A stretch of DNA of 64,000 nucleotides from Actinomycetota bacterium (GTDB lineage Bacteria; Actinomycetota; UBA4738; HRBIN12), in assembly GCA_035640355.1 (NCBI GenBank), contig DASQWI010000009.1, forward strand, positions 124,001 through 188,000, in the 5' to 3' direction. Positions 19,267 through 26,206 of the stretch are shown here, piece by piece (position 1 is the stretch's first letter; each line of letters begins with the position of its first letter). The notes under the pieces were generated by a model. It was not told where the DNA came from and did not search any database. It saw only the letters and a program-made list of their open reading frames with translations. The position numbers and the translations under genes were made by a program.

Positions 19267-19941
19267 ATGATTCTTTTCGTCGTCGTCGTCGGCTTGGCAG
19301 TTGTTCTCGGGTACCTCCTTGGCGGGCGCCTGAGCGCCTTCGAGAACCTCCGATTGCGATGGTGGGGACTGATCGTCGTCGGCCTGGCCATCCAGTTCAT
19401 GCCATTGCCGGAAGGTGATGGCGGAACCGATCTCGTCGTGCGGACTGCAGCCCTCGCCGTCTCGTACACGCTGATCGTGGCGTTCGCGATCGCAAACGTT
19501 CGAGTGCCGGGGATGCCGCTCATCCTGATCGGGGTCGCCGCGAACTTCGCGGTCATCGTCGCCAATGGTGGGATGCCGGTGAGCGAGTCGGCTCTGATCA
19601 ACTCGGGGCACGGGAACGACGTCGGTCAACTGCAACAGGAGGGCTTGGAAAAGCATCACCTGATGGACGACGACGACGTGCTCACGTTCCTGGCGGACGT
19701 CATCGGAATACCGAATCCGATCGGTCAGGCCATCAGCATCGGCGACGTGTTCGTGTATCTCGGGGTGACGTGGCTGACTGTCGCGGCTATGCGGGGACGG
19801 ACTCCGTCGACCCCGAAGGAGCGGGGACCGTATCGGGGGCGGCACCGTCGCGGCTCGGCGCGGGTGGTTGATCTTGAGGTTGAGCACCCGGGCCCTGTGG
19901 AGCGTCTGGCTGGAGCCACAGGGTCGGGAACCGGACCTTGA
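19267..19941 (+). CDS. DUF5317 membrane protein
   Basis: 224 residues from ATG 19267, with GGGAG upstream. The family pattern is clear: GGRLSAFENLRLRWWGLI near the N-terminus, four hydrophobic segments to about residue 110, VANGGMPVSESA, and a final helix ISIGDVFVYLGVTWLTVAAM at about 158-177. The function of the family is unknown. The last ~48 residues (basic, Gly/Pro-rich) are read across the 3' end of the convergent histidine kinase, a 155-bp overlap. This tail may be a read-through extension past the natural end of the family domain. Confidence 0.82.
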   Translation: MILFVVVVGLAVVLGYLLGGRLSAFENLRLRWWGLIVVGLAIQFMPLPEGDGGTDLVVRTAALAVSYTLIVAFAIANVRVPGMPLILIGVAANFAVIVANGGMPVSESALINSGHGNDVGQLQQEGLEKHHLMDDDDVLTFLADVIGIPNPIGQAISIGDVFVYLGVTWLTVAAMRGRTPSTPKERGPYRGRHRRGSARVVDLEVEHPGPVERLAGATGSGTGP

Positions 19942-21367
19942 TGGTCGCGCCCTCGCCGGGCGCGCTCGACATCTCGAACGTTCCACCACCGACGGTGGCT
20001 CGCTCGCGCATCATCGTCAGGCCGAAATGCCCTTCGGGTTCAGGAGCGTCGACGTCGAAGCCGCCCCCGTCGTCACGGAGAAGCATCTCGACCTCGTCTC
20101 CGTGCTGCCTGACGGTGATCCACATGTTGTTGGCATGGGCGTGTTTCAGCGAGTTCATGACCGCCTCGCGTCCGATGTGATACATGAGCAGGGCGATCGG
20201 CGCCGGGAGCTCCACCTCGTCGATGTCGGCCGCGTGGAACCGAACGTCGGAGTTGTCGCCACTCACCTCCGCGATGAAGCTCCGGAGCGCTTCCGCCAGA
20301 CCAGCGCGACCGAGCGGAGAACGGTGCAGGTCTCGAATCAGCGCGCGGATTCGGTCGGATGTACGGTTCTTGGTGTCCTTGATTTCTGCGAGCTGCTTCT
20401 CGACCTCGTCGATCTTGCCGCTCGAAACGTGACGCCGCGCCACGTCCACCTGGATCGATAGTCGGAATAGGAGCTGGGCGAGATCGTCGTGTAGGTACGA
20501 CGCGATCTGCATCCTCTCGTCTTGGCGTTCCTCGGCCATCCGGTTCGACAGCGCGCGAAGGACGTGTTCTCGGTCTTGGAGCTCCTTGTGCGCTTCCTCG
20601 AGCGCTTTGCTGCGGAAGAACATCTGCCGCGCGAGAAGCAGAGGGATCACGAGAGCTGGAAGACTCCAGAAGACGATCTCTTCAACTATAAGAATCCTAG
20701 CCAAGATAACGCCGAACACAGACAGAAATAGGTAGCTGATGACGAATTCGCTCAAACGCCCTACGCGCAGCTCTCGAACTACTCGCAGCGGAGGCATCCG
20801 ATAAAGGAAGCTCGCACCAAGTGTGACGAGCGAAGCATTCACGACATAGTCGGCAACCGCGGCTACCCCCGCAGCGCCAAGAAGGGCGAACGCGTTCGAA
20901 TACGCCACGCCGTCTGCGATGAGTGCATGGAACGTCAGGCTAGCGGCGCCTACAGCCAGGGCGACTTGAGAACGATTGAACAGCGCATGTAGAAAATCGA
21001 CTTCGCGGCGCAACTCTCGCGGATCCGACGCGGCGATGAATGCTGCAGCTGCTGCGACTGGAGGGTGGAACAGGAAGGCCACGACCATTAACAGAGGAAA
21101 GCCCATGGCTATGTGGGTTCCGCGCCACATCGGAACCGGAATCAACTCGACGAGAGCGACAATGAGGACTAAGGCGACCAGCTTCGCCCACTCGTCTGGT
21201 TTGAGGTCTGGCGGCTCCTGCAAGAGTGCGAGGCTCAATAAGGCAACGGTCGGAGTGACGACCCCAACGTAGAAAGCAATAAGTCCCCATGCCGTCGGAG
21301 CGGAGGCCGCCCCTTGTCTCGCTTGCGACAACCCTCGCCTCCCCACAGAACGTTTTGCTGCCGTCAC
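19787..21367 (-). CDS. Membrane sensor histidine kinase (HisKA_3 type), paralogue A
   Basis: 526 residues from GTG 21367, with AGAAGGG eight bases upstream. Residues 25-250 are six to seven membrane helices holding DPRELRREVDFLHALFNRSQVAL, an integral sensor domain shared with paralogue B. A coiled coil (residues 251-285) leads to the H box IASYLHDDLAQLLF with His 293. The ATPase part has the N box GREAVMNSLKHA, then RDDGGGFD and GHFGLTMMRER. A disordered Pro/Gln-rich tail ends the protein and overlaps DUF5317. Kinases of this kind normally phosphorylate NarL-type regulators, but none is adjacent. It is transcribed away from the small peptide gene. Confidence 0.92.
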   Translation of the reverse strand: MTAAKRSVGRRGLSQARQGAASAPTAWGLIAFYVGVVTPTVALLSLALLQEPPDLKPDEWAKLVALVLIVALVELIPVPMWRGTHIAMGFPLLMVVAFLFHPPVAAAAAFIAASDPRELRREVDFLHALFNRSQVALAVGAASLTFHALIADGVAYSNAFALLGAAGVAAVADYVVNASLVTLGASFLYRMPPLRVVRELRVGRLSEFVISYLFLSVFGVILARILIVEEIVFWSLPALVIPLLLARQMFFRSKALEEAHKELQDREHVLRALSNRMAEERQDERMQIASYLHDDLAQLLFRLSIQVDVARRHVSSGKIDEVEKQLAEIKDTKNRTSDRIRALIRDLHRSPLGRAGLAEALRSFIAEVSGDNSDVRFHAADIDEVELPAPIALLMYHIGREAVMNSLKHAHANNMWITVRQHGDEVEMLLRDDGGGFDVDAPEPEGHFGLTMMRERATVGGGTFEMSSAPGEGATIKVRFPTLWLQPDAPQGPGAQPQDQPPAPSRDGAAPDTVPAPSGSTESVPA

Positions 21368-21420
21368 ATATTGACCCTTCTTGTCGCGCCGGCAACCACC
21401 ACCTGGCCTGGTCGAATGCC

Positions 21421-21567
21421 GCTCAGATTCCTACAACGAATCCTGTAGGTAGCACGGAGGGCTTGTCGGCCACATGGGGTCCCCCGATAGTTCATGCGGC
21501 GTCCCCCGATCGGGGTGGCGCCGTGAGTTGGGGGTAGGTCAGGGGTCTCGGCTCCGCGAGGGGGTGG
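21421..21567 (+). promoter_or_regulatory. Structured leader upstream of a small peptide gene
   Basis: Part of the 342-base gap between the two kinases. It holds a possible stem CCTACA/TGTAGG at 21430-21450. A direct repeat GTCCCCCGAT lies at 21479-21488 and 21501-21510. A nested stem runs CGGCG-T-CCCCC...GGGG-TGG-CGCCG (21498-21523), and GGGGG at 21530-21534 could pair with the first C run. The frame of the 29-codon peptide follows directly. I could not match it to a riboswitch or to 6C RNA. Bases 21368-21420 show only the kinase A start region. Confidence 0.4.
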
Positions 21568-21657
21568 ATGGGGATGAAGCTGATCAAGCGGCTCGCGATC
21601 GCGATCGGCTCGCTAGCGGCGCTTGCGCTGGCTGGCGGCGCCCACATGCGCCTCTAG
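21568..21657 (+). CDS. 29-residue hydrophobic peptide between two kinases
   Basis: The frame reads MGMKLIKRLAIAIGSLAALA followed by LAGGAHMRL and TAG at 21655-21657. GAGGGGGTGG precedes the ATG at 21568; ATG 21574 is an alternative giving 27 residues. The N-terminus is basic (KLIKR), followed by an 18-residue hydrophobic run, so it looks like a signal peptide or single-helix membrane peptide with a very short tail. A strong terminator follows 25 bases after the stop. It lies on the plus strand between two minus-strand sensor kinases that share a membrane sensing domain. A role as a secreted signal or kinase-modulating peptide is inference. Confidence 0.5.
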   Translation: MGMKLIKRLAIAIGSLAALALAGGAHMRL

Positions 21658-21682
21658 CCCCGATCGCAAGGAATCGGGCTTC

Positions 21683-21718
21683 CGTAGGCTCCGAGCATTG
21701 GCTCGGAGCCTACGTTTT
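21683..21718 (+). terminator. Rho-independent terminator
   Basis: Perfect 14-bp stem (21683-21696 with 21701-21714), four-base loop ATTG, then TTTTCGT. The U run lies on the plus-strand side, so it ends the small peptide transcript. The right arm covers the last codons and stop of kinase B on the minus strand; in that direction no U run follows. Confidence 0.9.
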
Positions 21719-22984
21719 CGTATCGGCTGAAGGGAGCCGCACAGAAATCCGCGTCCCCATCCCGACTGCGCTATCAACCTGAAGAGCTCCACCGGCGAGC
21801 TCAATGCGTTCGCGAATCAACGCAAGACCAAAGTGCCGACTTGCGTCCACCAGGTGCGGCGAAAAGCCCGACCCGTTGTCATCAACGTCCAGTCGGATGT
21901 CGTCGCCATCCTGCCGTAGCGCGACCTTGATTCGCGAGGCGCCCGAGTACCTCATCGCGTTTCTTAAGGCCTCACGTGCAATTTGGTAGACGAGAAGCTC
22001 AACGACGGGCTTGCCTCTAACCTCCTCGATCTCGGTCTCAAACGAAACGGTAGATCTGCCTTCAAAGTCGCGCACCAACAGCTGAAGTGTGTGAGCAAGT
22101 CCTCCAGCGCCGAGCGGTGAATGACGAAGGTCTCGAATCACCGATCGCACTGTGTTGCTGGCGTCATCGGTAGCCCGAAGCAATTCGGGGAGGTCATCCT
22201 CCATCGCAAGAAGTTGGCCAGTCGACATCTCTTGCCTAAGGACTTGACCTAGTAGGTGAACCTTGAAAAGCGGAGGGAGGACGTCGTCATGTAGGCCTGA
22301 CGCGACGGCAAGTCGCTCATCGCGCCTCTCGTCAGCGATTCGGTCGGTCGCTTCCTGAAGTGCGCGGCCTTGAATGCCCAGCCTCCTCTCCGCGCTATAC
22401 AGACTCTGTCCTTGCTGGAAAGCCTCTCTGGCGAGAAGGATTGGCATGGCAAACAGGGCCAGGCCCCACGGTCCAACCGCGATGTACACCTCGGCAAGCA
22501 AGAGACTCTGAAAGCCAAACGCTGCATAGGCCATGACAGGGCCGAGGCGGAGCCTCGAAAGTGACGTCGAAGGCGTCACGTGATCATTCAGTGCCATTAC
22601 AGCCGTTACAAGCCCCAAATTGATAACACTGTCGACAGCCACAGCAAGCAATGCTCCCGCGGCCGCGAGGGGCAACGCATTCAAATCGGGACTGACAAAT
22701 GAGAAAACAGCTGTGGATGCCATGACACTGAGCGAAATCTGCGCCCGGTTGAACAAAGCTCGCTCAATAGAGATCTCGCCTCGAAATTCCCGGACGTCGA
22801 CGTAACCGGCGAAAGCAACTATGCCTGCCGCGACGGGACCAAATATGTATCCGGCGGCCAAAACGACAAGATCAACTGCGGTGACTGCTAGCATCGCAAG
22901 ACGCAACTCCAGTGAATGACTGGGCCTCTGCGATCGGCGGGGAAGTCTCTTTCGGGCGCCTGCGGAGCTCGTCGTAACAGACAC
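21710..22984 (-). CDS. Membrane sensor histidine kinase (HisKA_3 type), paralogue B
   Basis: 424 residues from GTG 22984, preceded by GAGAGGGGG six bases upstream; ATG 23017 would add eleven residues but has no such site. The membrane part (residues 30-185) contains YVDVREFRGEISIERALFNR, clearly homologous to paralogue A. H box VASGLHDDVLPPLF has His 232, N box AREALRNAMRYSGA, then VDDNGSGFSPH and HFGLALIRERI. Base composition is visibly less GC-rich than flanking genes, with codons such as AAA, ATA and TCA, suggesting a different history. No response regulator of the NarL type is adjacent. Confidence 0.9.
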   Translation of the reverse strand: MSVTTSSAGARKRLPRRSQRPSHSLELRLAMLAVTAVDLVVLAAGYIFGPVAAGIVAFAGYVDVREFRGEISIERALFNRAQISLSVMASTAVFSFVSPDLNALPLAAAGALLAVAVDSVINLGLVTAVMALNDHVTPSTSLSRLRLGPVMAYAAFGFQSLLLAEVYIAVGPWGLALFAMPILLAREAFQQGQSLYSAERRLGIQGRALQEATDRIADERRDERLAVASGLHDDVLPPLFKVHLLGQVLRQEMSTGQLLAMEDDLPELLRATDDASNTVRSVIRDLRHSPLGAGGLAHTLQLLVRDFEGRSTVSFETEIEEVRGKPVVELLVYQIAREALRNAMRYSGASRIKVALRQDGDDIRLDVDDNGSGFSPHLVDASRHFGLALIRERIELAGGALQVDSAVGMGTRISVRLPSADTKT

Positions 22985-23071
22985 GCAAGACCCCCTCTCG
23001 GAAACCTGGCGAATCATGGTGAGGGCTGATACCGACGGTCAAGACAGACAAAACGGCCATAGCATCGGTTC

Positions 23072-23758
23072 GTGAAGCTGCGCATCCTCGTCGTCGAAGA
23101 CGAGAAGTCGATATCCGAGCCGCTCGCTGAAGGTCTCGGGCGCGAGGGGTTCGACACGGAGGTCGCCGCGACCCTCGAGTCGGCCAGGCAGGGGTGGCGA
23201 CGCGCCCCCGATCTGATCCTGCTCGACGTCATGCTTCCCGACGGCGACGGCCGCGACCTCGCACGCGAGATCCGACGGGAGTCGGACGTGCCCATCATCA
23301 TCCTCACCGCTCGCGGCGAGGAGATCGATCGCGTCGTCGGCCTCGAGCTCGGAGCGGACGATTACGTCGTCAAGCCGTTCTCCATGCGCGAGCTCACCGC
23401 TCGGATCCGAGCGATCCTGCGCCGCGGCCGGTCATCCGAACCACGCACACCGATCCAGATCGGCGAGATCCGACTCGACCCGGCGTCTCGAACGGTGACC
23501 AAGGATGGCCAACCGGTCGAGCTCGCCGCGAAGGAGTTCGATCTGCTCCAGATGCTGATGGCGAACGCGGGCCACGTTTTGCGCCGCGAGCAGATCATGG
23601 ACGAGGTGTGGGACCCCCACTGGTTCGGCCCGACCAAGACGCTCGACGTGCACGTCTCGTGGCTGCGAAAGAAGATCGAGGACGATCCGGCGGTCCCGCG
23701 TTACATCACTACGGTTCGAGGCGTCGGCTTCCGGTTCCTGTCGCCGGAAGACTCGTAG
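23072..23758 (+). CDS. OmpR/PhoB-family response regulator
   Basis: 228 residues from GTG 23072. The receiver domain has acidic pair EDE at 9-11, phosphoacceptor Asp 52 (LLDVMLPDG), the LTAR switch threonine and VVKPFS lysine. The C-terminal winged helix (residues 130-225) includes ELAAKEFDLLQMLMANAGHVLRREQ and RYITTVRGVGFRF. It binds DNA once phosphorylated. The cognate kinase follows 12 bases after the stop. The region upstream (22985-23071) is shared with divergent kinase B. Confidence 0.95.
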   Translation: MKLRILVVEDEKSISEPLAEGLGREGFDTEVAATLESARQGWRRAPDLILLDVMLPDGDGRDLAREIRRESDVPIIILTARGEEIDRVVGLELGADDYVVKPFSMRELTARIRAILRRGRSSEPRTPIQIGEIRLDPASRTVTKDGQPVELAAKEFDLLQMLMANAGHVLRREQIMDEVWDPHWFGPTKTLDVHVSWLRKKIEDDPAVPRYITTVRGVGFRFLSPEDS

Positions 23759-23762
23759 GAGG
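23757..23762 (+). promoter_or_regulatory. Ribosome binding site fixing an ACG start
   Basis: AGGAGG (AGGAGGT with the next base) overlaps the response-regulator stop and stands eight bases before ACG 23771. The next standard in-frame start is GTG 23852, which would remove the kinase's first membrane helix. No ATG, GTG or TTG lies at ribosome-compatible distance in the kinase frame. Confidence 0.65.
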
Positions 23763-23770
23763 TACGAACC

Positions 23771-25147
23771 ACGAGGGTCCGAACGCGTCTGGTCCTCGCC
23801 TTCGCCTACATCCTCATCGTCGTCATCATCGGCCTCGGAGTCCCGCTCACCGTGAACCTTCAGCGACGCGCCGCTGCCGAGCTCGAGACGAACGCGCTCG
23901 TCACCGCGCAAGGCATAGCCGCGGCAATCGACCCGAGCCGGATCGATCGGACGGACGAGATGACCGAGCTCGTGCGCGACGCTGCGGCCAGGGCCAATGT
24001 TCGCGTGATCGTCGTCGACTCCGCCGGCATCGTGAGCGGCGACTCCGATGGCATCGCGGTCGGCGAGATGTACGCGGAACGCGGACGTCCGGAGATTCTT
24101 CGAGCGCTCGACGGGCAGCCGGAGTCGATCATCCGGATGAGCCAGGACCTGGGCCGAGACATCATGGCTACTGCCGTTCCCGTCGTCGACGAGGACGAGC
24201 AGCGGGTCGTCGGCGCGGTGCGGATCACGCAAGACGTCCAACAGGTGAGCGACAATGTTCGGCGGACGACGCTTGGCTTGCTCGCAATCGGCGCCGCTGG
24301 CCTGGTTGCCGGATTGATCCTCGCGTTCGGCCTGGCCGGTTCGCTGTCACGACCGCTGACCAAGCTCGCGGGAGCCGCTCGGAGGCTTGGATCGGGCGAC
24401 CTCAGTGCGAGGACGGAGCTCGCGGGCGGCGCGAGCGAGATCGAAGAGTTGGCGCGGGCCTTCGACGAGATGGCGGACCGGCTCGAGCGAACCGTTCGCG
24501 CGCAGCGCGAGTTCGTGGCGAACGCGTCGCATCAGCTCAGGACGCCGCTCACCGGGATGAAGCTTCGTCTCGAGTCCGCCATCGCCGAGGCCGAGGACGA
24601 CGCCGTCAAGAGGCGACTTCAAGCGGCAGAACGCGAGGTCGACCGGCTCTCCAAGATCGTCGCGCGACTCCTGGTGACGGCAGCGGCCGTCGAGGAGGGG
24701 CGGCCAACGCGCGTCGACCTGGACGACGCGATCGAGCGCGCCGTGGCCCGATGGGAGGAACGGGCGACGCGAGCGAGTGCGACGCTCGCCGCGACCGGCA
24801 ACGCGGGCAGCGCGGAAGGGAACCCATCGGATGTCGACCAGATCCTCGACAACCTGCTCGACAACGCGATCTCATATGCGCCGGGAGACGTGATGATCGA
24901 GGCTGGACACCACAACACGTCCGCGTTCGTCGCCGTCGAGGACCGGGGTCCGGGTATCCGCGCGGAAGACGTCGCTCGGGTGACAGAGCGTTTCTACCGA
25001 GGGGGAGACGCTCCGCGCGGCGGTTCCGGACTGGGGCTGGCGATCGCAAGCGATCTAGCGGAGAAGTGGGGCGGTTCGATCGAGGTGACGAGTGAGGTCG
25101 GCCGGGGCACGCGCGTAGAGGTACGCCTCCGATCGCTGAAGACCTGA
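23771..25147 (+). CDS. Two-component sensor histidine kinase, ACG start
   Basis: 458 residues counted from ACG 23771. Starting there gives a typical first helix, RVRTRLVLAFAYILIVVIIG plus LGVPLTV. An extracellular domain follows (residues 30-170), then a second helix (GLLAIGAAGLVAGLILAFGLA), a HAMP linker ending GSGDLSARTEL, and H box FVANASHQLRTPLTG with His 254. The ATPase domain shows QILDNLLDNAISYA, VEDRGPGI and GGSGLGLAIA. It pairs with the upstream OmpR-type regulator. The stimulus is unknown; two Asp/Ser/Gly-rich surface proteins downstream could be targets. Confidence 0.92.
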   Translation, partial: TRVRTRLVLAFAYILIVVIIGLGVPLTVNLQRRAAAELETNALVTAQGIAAAIDPSRIDRTDEMTELVRDAAARANVRVIVVDSAGIVSGDSDGIAVGEMYAERGRPEILRALDGQPESIIRMSQDLGRDIMATAVPVVDEDEQRVVGAVRITQDVQQVSDNVRRTTLGLLAIGAAGLVAGLILAFGLAGSLSRPLTKLAGAARRLGSGDLSARTELAGGASEIEELARAFDEMADRLERTVRAQREFVANASHQLRTPLTGMKLRLESAIAEAEDDAVKRRLQAAEREVDRLSKIVARLLVTAAAVEEGRPTRVDLDDAIERAVARWEERATRASATLAATGNAGSAEGNPSDVDQILDNLLDNAISYAPGDVMIEAGHHNTSAFVAVEDRGPGIRAEDVARVTERFYRGGDAPRGGSGLGLAIASDLAEKWGGSIEVTSEVGRGTRVEVRLRSLKT

Positions 25148-25183: not shown

Positions 25184-25591
25184 GTGGGGATCGTGAACAA
25201 GCGGATCCTCGTGTCCGTCGCCTGGGCCGTCGCCGGATTTGCGGTTGCAGTCGGAGTGATGGCCTGGGCGTTCGCGCTCGCGGGACAAGAAATCTCCGAA
25301 CCGGCGACGCCGTCCCTCTTCTCGCTCTCCCCGACGCCGGACGAAGGGATTGACCGGTCGCCCTCGCCGACGCCCGACACGCCGACGCCTACGCCGTCTG
25401 AGCGCGACGACGACAACTCGGGGCCAGGCGCGGGTTCCGACGACAACTCGGGCCCGGGGTCGGACGACTCGGCTTTGGACAATTCCGGTCCCGGCTCCGA
25501 CAACTCCGGACCCGGATCCGACAACTCGGGCTCGGGGTCGAGCAGTTCCGGTTCCGGTTCGAGTGGTTCGAGCGATCGCGACGACGACTAA
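25184..25591 (+). CDS. Membrane-anchored low-complexity protein (DNSGPGS repeats)
   Basis: 135 residues from GTG 25184; GTG 25193 is an equally good start. One helix (about residues 9-33) is followed by a Ser/Pro/Thr linker (LSPTPDEG, PSPTPDTPTPTP) and a tail of imperfect DNSGPGSD repeats ending in SSGSSDRDDD. No enzymatic domain is present. The tail probably extends outside the cell and may be glycosylated or bind cations. It follows the kinase by 36 bases and shares its repeat with the next gene, so both may belong to the regulon of the OmpR-type pair; this is inference from position. Confidence 0.75.
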   Translation: MGIVNKRILVSVAWAVAGFAVAVGVMAWAFALAGQEISEPATPSLFSLSPTPDEGIDRSPSPTPDTPTPTPSERDDDNSGPGAGSDDNSGPGSDDSALDNSGPGSDNSGPGSDNSGSGSSSSGSGSSGSSDRDDD

Positions 25592-25693
25592 CCCGAATCC
25601 TTCACCTCTCCTTATCTCTCCTCTGGCCCGCCGGTAACGCTCTGCTTCCTACCGTTGAGACGTCGATCTGACGACCGACCAAAGGAGGTAGAG

Positions 25694-26206
25694 ATGAGGA
25701 ACGCGTTCCGGATCGCGTTGGTGATTGGCGCGATCGTGATCGTTGCCGCACTCGGGCTGACGGCGTTCGCCAGCGGCTCGAGCCCCACGCTGAGCTCGAC
25801 TCCCACCTCGACGACGTCGCCCTCGGACGACGGTCCGTTCGACATCTCGGGGAACTGCGACGAACCTGAGCACTTCAACGACCCCGAGTGCGAGGGCATC
25901 ACGCCCGGAGTAGGGAATGATGCGGACGACGATCGTGCCGACGACGATGTGGATGGGGTCGTCGCCGACGACGTGAACGACGACGACGCCGACGTGGATG
26001 GCATCGGAGATGACGACGCCGATGACGATGGCGATGTCGACGACAACTCCGGTCCGAGCGCGAACTCCGGACCTGGGAGTGTCGACGATGACGACGCCGA
26101 CGTGGACAACTCTGGGCGTGGAAACGGCGATGACGACGCTGGCGCCGACGATTCCGGCTCGGGCAACGGAGACCATGACAACTCTGGTTCCGGCGGCGAC
26201 GACTGA
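25694..26206 (+). CDS. Exported acidic Asp-rich protein
   Basis: 170 residues from ATG 25694, preceded by a full AAAGGAGGT. One N-terminal helix (about residues 6-25) ends in TAFASG, which could be a cleaved signal or an anchor. After a short motif with two cysteines (GNCDEPEHFNDPECEG), the rest is dominated by Asp with Val, Gly and Ser. DADDDGDVDDN-like runs resemble calcium-binding thrombospondin-type repeats, and NSGPGS units are shared with the preceding gene. Cation binding at the cell surface is inference. A 12-bp stem terminator follows. Confidence 0.78.
   Translation: MRNAFRIALVIGAIVIVAALGLTAFASGSSPTLSSTPTSTTSPSDDGPFDISGNCDEPEHFNDPECEGITPGVGNDADDDRADDDVDGVVADDVNDDDADVDGIGDDDADDDGDVDDNSGPSANSGPGSVDDDDADVDNSGRGNGDDDAGADDSGSGNGDHDNSGSGGDD

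Follow-up and report, generated by a model that had tools for sequence, protein, structure and literature searches.

A conserved micropeptide gene between two MASE9-like membrane kinases points to a peptide-signalling or peptide-regulated sensor system in Actinomycetota

In the ComQXPA system of Bacillus, a small peptide gene encoding the ComX pheromone lies beside the gene for ComP, a multi-spanning membrane kinase of the HisKA_3 type, and a Trp near the C-terminus of ComX is important (PMC5331326; PMC4008528). In the Agr system (AgrB/AgrD/AgrC), the short precursor has a hydrophobic or amphipathic leader and works with two membrane proteins, an accessory protein and a histidine kinase. Precursors of the Rgg/SHP and enterococcal iCF10/iAD1 types are about 22–30 residues long and consist of a signal-like sequence followed by a short tail, with shp genes often divergent from the receptor gene. 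MgrB, a very small membrane peptide of about 47 residues with a periplasmic domain, regulates the sensor kinase PhoQ specifically. Here, we describe a 29-codon frame lying between the genes of two homologous membrane kinases, kinase A and kinase B, in a stretch of 64,000 nucleotides (the window) from an Actinomycetota bacterium of the lineage UBA4738; HRBIN12 (assembly GCA_035640355.1, contig DASQWI010000009.1, positions 124,001 to 188,000). In our favoured reading, to which we assign a probability of about 0.5, the frame is a genuine micropeptide gene, whose product serves as a dedicated ligand of the MASE9-like membrane domain of the two kinases.

ComX precursors are longer than the peptide encoded here. 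The locus resembles ComQXPA in having a small peptide gene beside multi-spanning kinases of the HisKA_3 type, but it has no ComQ-like isoprenyl transferase and no linked regulator of the ComA type, and its sensor domain is MASE9-like, a domain that is also used with non-kinase outputs. Membership in ComQXPA (PMC4008528; PMC5331326) was rejected, as no ComQ-like gene occurs among the frames around the locus and none of the 19 GerE domains of the genome (E ≤ 1e-6) lies on this contig, which agrees with the initial annotation that no NarL-type regulator is nearby. Each part of the Agr system has a counterpart here (the small precursor and its leader, the accessory protein in the membrane, and the membrane-bound kinase), yet the kinases are of the HisKA_3 and not the AgrC type. 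Agr membership was rejected as well, since AgrB was found in 0 of the 27 genomes by which the class of the source genome was sampled (E ≤ 0.01) and eight representative peptides gave no match to an AgrD-type NCBIfam model. The small precursor is shared with the Rgg/SHP and iCF10/iAD1 types, whereas the receptors are cytoplasmic there and an integral membrane sensor domain is present here. MgrB differs from the peptide in its greater length, its periplasmic domain, and its restriction to PhoQ. Among described families, Pfam MASE9 (PF20972) and DUF5317 (PF17248) include, or lie close to, the sensors and the accessory protein, while the associated peptide stands outside all models searched, with no match to Pfam or, for the eight representatives, to NCBIfam.

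Read from its first ATG, the frame encodes MGMKLIKRLAIAIGSLAALALAGGAHMRL. Since relatives start at the position of the second ATG, the product probably comprises 27 amino acids (Table 1). A frame of this length on the strand opposite to the kinases, preceded by a strong Shine-Dalgarno sequence, had been proposed in the initial annotation, and both are present, the Shine-Dalgarno-like sequence standing directly 5′ of the frame. Each readable spacer of the class contains an opposite-strand frame of 27–30 residues behind a ribosome-binding site, and the peptides of the relatives, found at the same location, follow the pattern MK..+R.AIALGSL.AL.LAGGAHWKV, with M1, R6, S13, A20, G21, and G22 invariant across 16 aligned relatives. 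The tail of the window peptide reads HMRL, and that of most relatives HWKV or similar. In the aligned peptide frames, differences at codon positions 1, 2, and 3 number 889, 458, and 1493, the proportion of nonsynonymous differences (pN) is below that of synonymous differences (pS) in 104 of 105 pairs, and no codon-position bias appears at three flanking control offsets. Conservation at the amino-acid level between paired kinases, which had been set beforehand as the test of the peptide, holds in all class genomes with a readable spacer. On this comparative evidence, the frame is a real, protein-coding, conserved micropeptide gene, and its product is presumably made in the cell.

The kinases themselves score above the Pfam cut-offs for both HisKA_3 (37.7 bits in kinase A, 24.6 bits in kinase B) and HATPase_c (42.9 and 58.9 bits, respectively), and they are 33–35% identical over their common region. 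The earlier recognition of two homologous membrane kinases, based on the shared motifs HALFNRSQVAL and RALFNRAQISL, was confirmed in both motifs and is extended by these catalytic domains and by the MASE9-like domain. Over the membrane part, the MASE9 model reaches 20.2 bits in kinase A and 20.0 bits in kinase B, below its curated cut-off of 24.3, and the same membrane domain passes the cut-off in relatives (e.g., 30.5 bits at locus L155 and 55.4 bits at L242). Across the class, kinases B and A recur together in this order, co-directional and separated by a spacer. When the membrane domain of kinase A was modelled (predicted local distance difference test, pLDDT, 93.3) and compared by Foldseek, its best solved matches were S-components of energy-coupling factor (ECF) transporters. 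The top match was TmRibU (E 2.7e-3, probability 1.00), with a template-modelling (TM) score of 0.62 by target length and 0.42 by query length; no match was obtained at E ≤ 0.001. The sensor membrane domain is thus predicted to adopt an ECF S-component-like fold through matches that are weak by E-value, and this ligand-binding membrane fold is counted in favour of a peptide ligand.

More distant copies elsewhere in the class were retrieved by a peptide profile search, and further peptide types adjoin a DUF5317 gene and a sensor that shares the membrane domain and differs in output. Members of the family are 20–34 residues long and have a basic start, a short hydrophobic or amphipathic stretch, and a C-terminal Trp with basic residues. 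Type 2 peptides lie beside HisKA kinases, type 3 peptides beside GGDEF-EAL proteins as tandem pairs of two different peptides, and type 4 peptides, ending LGAG(K/R)KW or similar, at the remaining DUF5317 loci, including L190 of the source genome. The MASE9-like partner sensors have five output types (HisKA_3, HisKA, GGDEF-EAL, HD-GYP, and SpoIIE), usually with DUF5317 nearby. Two other such sensors were found in the source genome, both with a peptide (L190 and L037; Table 1). Of 397 Actinomycetota genomes, 105 have DUF5317. A comparable peptide is present at many of the 40 DUF5317 loci read, frequently immediately 5′ of a MASE9-like sensor; beyond the class, the sensors beside peptides at these loci have HD-GYP, HisKA_3, GGDEF-EAL, or SpoIIE outputs.

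To escape the DUF5317 anchor, MASE9 was also searched alone, which found it in 64 of the 397 genomes, and the 30 best loci were read. MASE9 and DUF5317 also give matches in Thermus and Thermotoga. By one fixed rule, a same-strand peptide ending in Trp lies upstream of 18 of the 22 MASE9 sensors with enough upstream sequence, versus 3 of 99 control genes. Two of the three positive controls are themselves of sensor type, one being an HD-GYP protein (L245 3351-4754) and the other a MASE9 GGDEF-EAL protein missed by the profile (L253 3894-5990). Because the rule takes the longest frame as the sensor, a few loci with peptides are mislabelled (e.g., L286 and L299), and 18 of 22 is thus a rough lower estimate. 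This domain-first test is fairer than a scan with the peptide pattern, though its rule was also shaped by earlier loci. The pattern scan gave 82 matches in 970,519 bases of related loci, of which one (L257 3688-3792) is clearly unrelated; 2.9 Mb of first-order Markov-random sequence gave none. As the pattern was written after family members had been seen, this count is a measure of specificity, not of an independent discovery rate. The only two matches in unrelated-looking control loci were the window peptide and the L037 peptide, which these control loci overlap. Tandem copies of one 20–23 residue peptide ending VRW were found upstream of MASE9 sensors (L287, L294, L296, L298, L303, L305, and L313) in genomes of one family (f8) and others, several of which have no DUF5317 match. 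At L287, L294, L296, L303, and L313, the copies are identical in protein and carry 0–2 third-position (silent) DNA differences. Such identical copies, together with the tandem two-peptide pairs, fit a diffusible signal, and the pairing of a conserved peptide gene with a putative membrane receptor is a trait expected of a pheromone-receptor system.

Table 1. Features of the micropeptide locus in the window and of the two related systems in the source genome.
Feature	Position	Strand	Description
DUF5317 membrane protein	19267-19941	+	PF17248, E 1.3e-30; adjoins kinase A in relatives with enough sequence
Kinase A	19787-21367	-	MASE9-like membrane domain, HisKA_3, HATPase_c (Pfam)
Imperfect dyad CCTACAACGAATCCTGTAGG	21430-21449	.	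Candidate regulator site; TAC...GTA arms at the same place in most aligned loci
Promoter-like TTGTCG-17-GATAGT	21463-21491	+	For the peptide gene; CCCGATAGT at the -10-like place in 10/14 aligned loci
Palindrome CCCCCGATCGGGG	21503-21515	.	Operator-like, just 3′ of the promoter-like element; CCCC(N3-5)GGGG in most aligned loci
Shine-Dalgarno-like GAGGGGGTGG	21558-21567	+	Direct reading; AGGAGG-like sequence precedes the peptide start in relatives
Peptide gene	21568-21657	+	29 codons from first ATG; conserved start ATG 21574; product MKLIKRLAIAIGSLAALALAGGAHMRL
Terminator	21683-21714	+	14-bp stem, 4-nt loop, T-rich tail; kinase B stop codon inside
Kinase B	21710-23017	-	Paralogue of kinase A, same architecture (Pfam)
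Second system of the source genome	L190 6962-7063 (C24)	+	MQNLLKRAWYSPALLVVLVYVLGAPRKWRPYAF directly before a MASE9 HisKA kinase; DUF5317 on the other strand
Third system of the source genome	L037 9312-9398 (C4)	+	MSKYRRLMVSLGWLAAFMMAVGNGWKNS near a related sensor; no DUF5317 found there

Upstream of the peptide gene, the dyad, the promoter-like element, and the palindrome appear, in alignments judged by eye, to be conserved as candidate control elements. The dyad, whose arms are separated by 9, is flanked by the start of kinase A and that of the peptide gene and could serve both genes. The promoter-like element had no match in a generic promoter scan of the window. At the other end of the gene, the 14-bp terminator of the initial annotation was found with its T-rich tail; as it overlaps the stop codon of kinase B, it is perhaps bidirectional. 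GC-rich hairpins lie 3′ of the peptide gene in the relatives read.

The DUF5317 frame and kinase A run in opposite directions and overlap at their 3′ ends (19787-19941). A model of the DUF5317 protein (pLDDT 94.3) yielded no match in the PDB at E ≤ 0.001 by Foldseek. Invariant residues include N77, N93, N100, D144, S157, and D160, and the Asp pair D144/D160 prompted the idea of an LspA-like aspartic peptidase, which was rejected as Foldseek was unsupportive and no LspA entry was listed; a permuted relation to LspA is possible. Beside kinase B and divergent from it are an OmpR-type response regulator and a HisKA kinase (23072-25147). Some relatives have this pair next to kinase B as well; since it was not found in others with enough sequence (L095 and L097), we leave it out of the core. 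Just downstream of it are two low-complexity frames (25184-25591 and 25655-26206) with DNSGPGS-type Asp/Asn/Ser/Gly repeats and no Pfam match.

Because the peptide types stand beside sensors of varied outputs, what stays constant beside the peptide is the sensor domain and not the output, and the peptide thus most likely acts on this domain. The recurrence of the pairing across output types and lineages supports a functional link. As a dedicated ligand, the peptide would probably be exported. In the working scheme, which is inferred as to how the peptide is exported, processed, and bound, which way the response goes, which regulator takes part, and what DUF5317 does, the peptide would be expressed from its own regulated promoter, and its basic-hydrophobic leader would insert it in the membrane or pass it across. 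The S-component-like membrane domain of kinase A, kinase B, or both would then recognise the C-terminal tail of the peptide, and the kinases would phosphorylate an unlinked NarL-type regulator that may feed back on the TAC...GTA dyad, while DUF5317 may take part in maturation, export, or presentation of the peptide. More tentatively, the window could be a case of two receptor kinases and one peptide within a widespread form of Actinomycetota peptide signalling, in which Trp-tailed ligands of 20–34 residues would act on one S-component-like MASE9-like sensor coupled to at least five output modules, with DUF5317 dedicated to maturation or export; we regard this wider proposal as possible and short of probable.

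Several observations weigh against a peptide ligand. No export or processing gene is known for the peptide, no cognate response regulator is linked to the locus, the tail of the window peptide is without Trp, and the Foldseek matches to S-components are weak (2.7e-3). DUF5317 lacks a solved homologue, some sensor-peptide pairs have no DUF5317 nearby (L037, L104, and several MASE9 genomes), and type 1 peptides occur in genome G014 with neither a sensor nor DUF5317 found in the surrounding 10 kb (L153 7596-7682 and L154 4862-4948). Furthermore, the supposed cleavage site varies, type 4 peptides having Leu at −3. These peptides and the 20-residue forms rule out signal peptidase I cleavage as a universal feature, and some relatives in other families, 20 residues long with Lys inside the hydrophobic stretch, are unlike Sec signal peptides. 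The signal-like character described in the initial annotation is in this respect not uniform. The likening of the locus to a peptide-sensing one is supported in part, by a conserved peptide that is widely paired with MASE9-like sensors, with secretion and kinase binding keeping the conditional standing they had there.

The chief alternative, less probable than an exported ligand, is a regulatory microprotein that stays in the membrane of the producing cell and, as a small subunit or inhibitor, packs on the sensor membrane domain in the way MgrB acts on PhoQ. Pairing with the sensor domain irrespective of output would suit such a subunit equally well, the conservation spans the hydrophobic stretch (S13, A20, G21, and G22 being invariant), and both the lack of a known exporter and the violation of the usual small-residue rule at −3 by type 4 peptides speak in its favour. 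However, some members, with 20 residues and a Lys in the hydrophobic part (MAKFFKMVLKMVGFGSTVRW), are too short and too polar to span the membrane as a helix. A subunit would also seldom be encoded in tandem identical copies or two-peptide pairs, and in the window the gene is on the opposite strand, with a promoter-like element and a terminator of its own.

It is less probable again that the peptide and the sensor are linked through co-regulation only, the peptide being membrane-active or toxic, or an output of the sensed response. The orphan copies at L153 and L154 and the amphipathic, cationic-aromatic features, as in membrane-active peptides, are consistent with this explanation, whereas the near one-to-one pairing with the sensor domain over lineages and output types argues against it, as do the absence of DUF5317 near some pairs and of any immunity-like partner among the neighbours seen. 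Lastly, the frame could be untranslated and the conserved element a regulatory RNA ending in the 14-bp terminator, given that folding of the transcript beats shuffles (z −4.2) and that the terminator is strong and the upstream DNA conserved. The codon-position bias, the pN and pS values, and the flat flanking controls make this highly improbable, no Rfam family was matched, and the peptide pattern is common to other loci whose DNA context is unrelated.

In the open-access literature, we found no mention of DUF5317 and no discussion of MASE9 as a sensor domain in bacteria, although a description elsewhere is possible, and little was found on peptide pheromones in Actinomycetota. The papers found there give no ligand or function for either MASE9 or DUF5317. 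Genes this short are likely to be missed by annotation, and this may be why the pairing has gone unnoticed. The pairing points to an undescribed peptide-signalling or peptide-regulated sensor system, and it makes the paired peptide a candidate for the signal read by sensors with two-component, cyclic-di-GMP, and phosphatase outputs.

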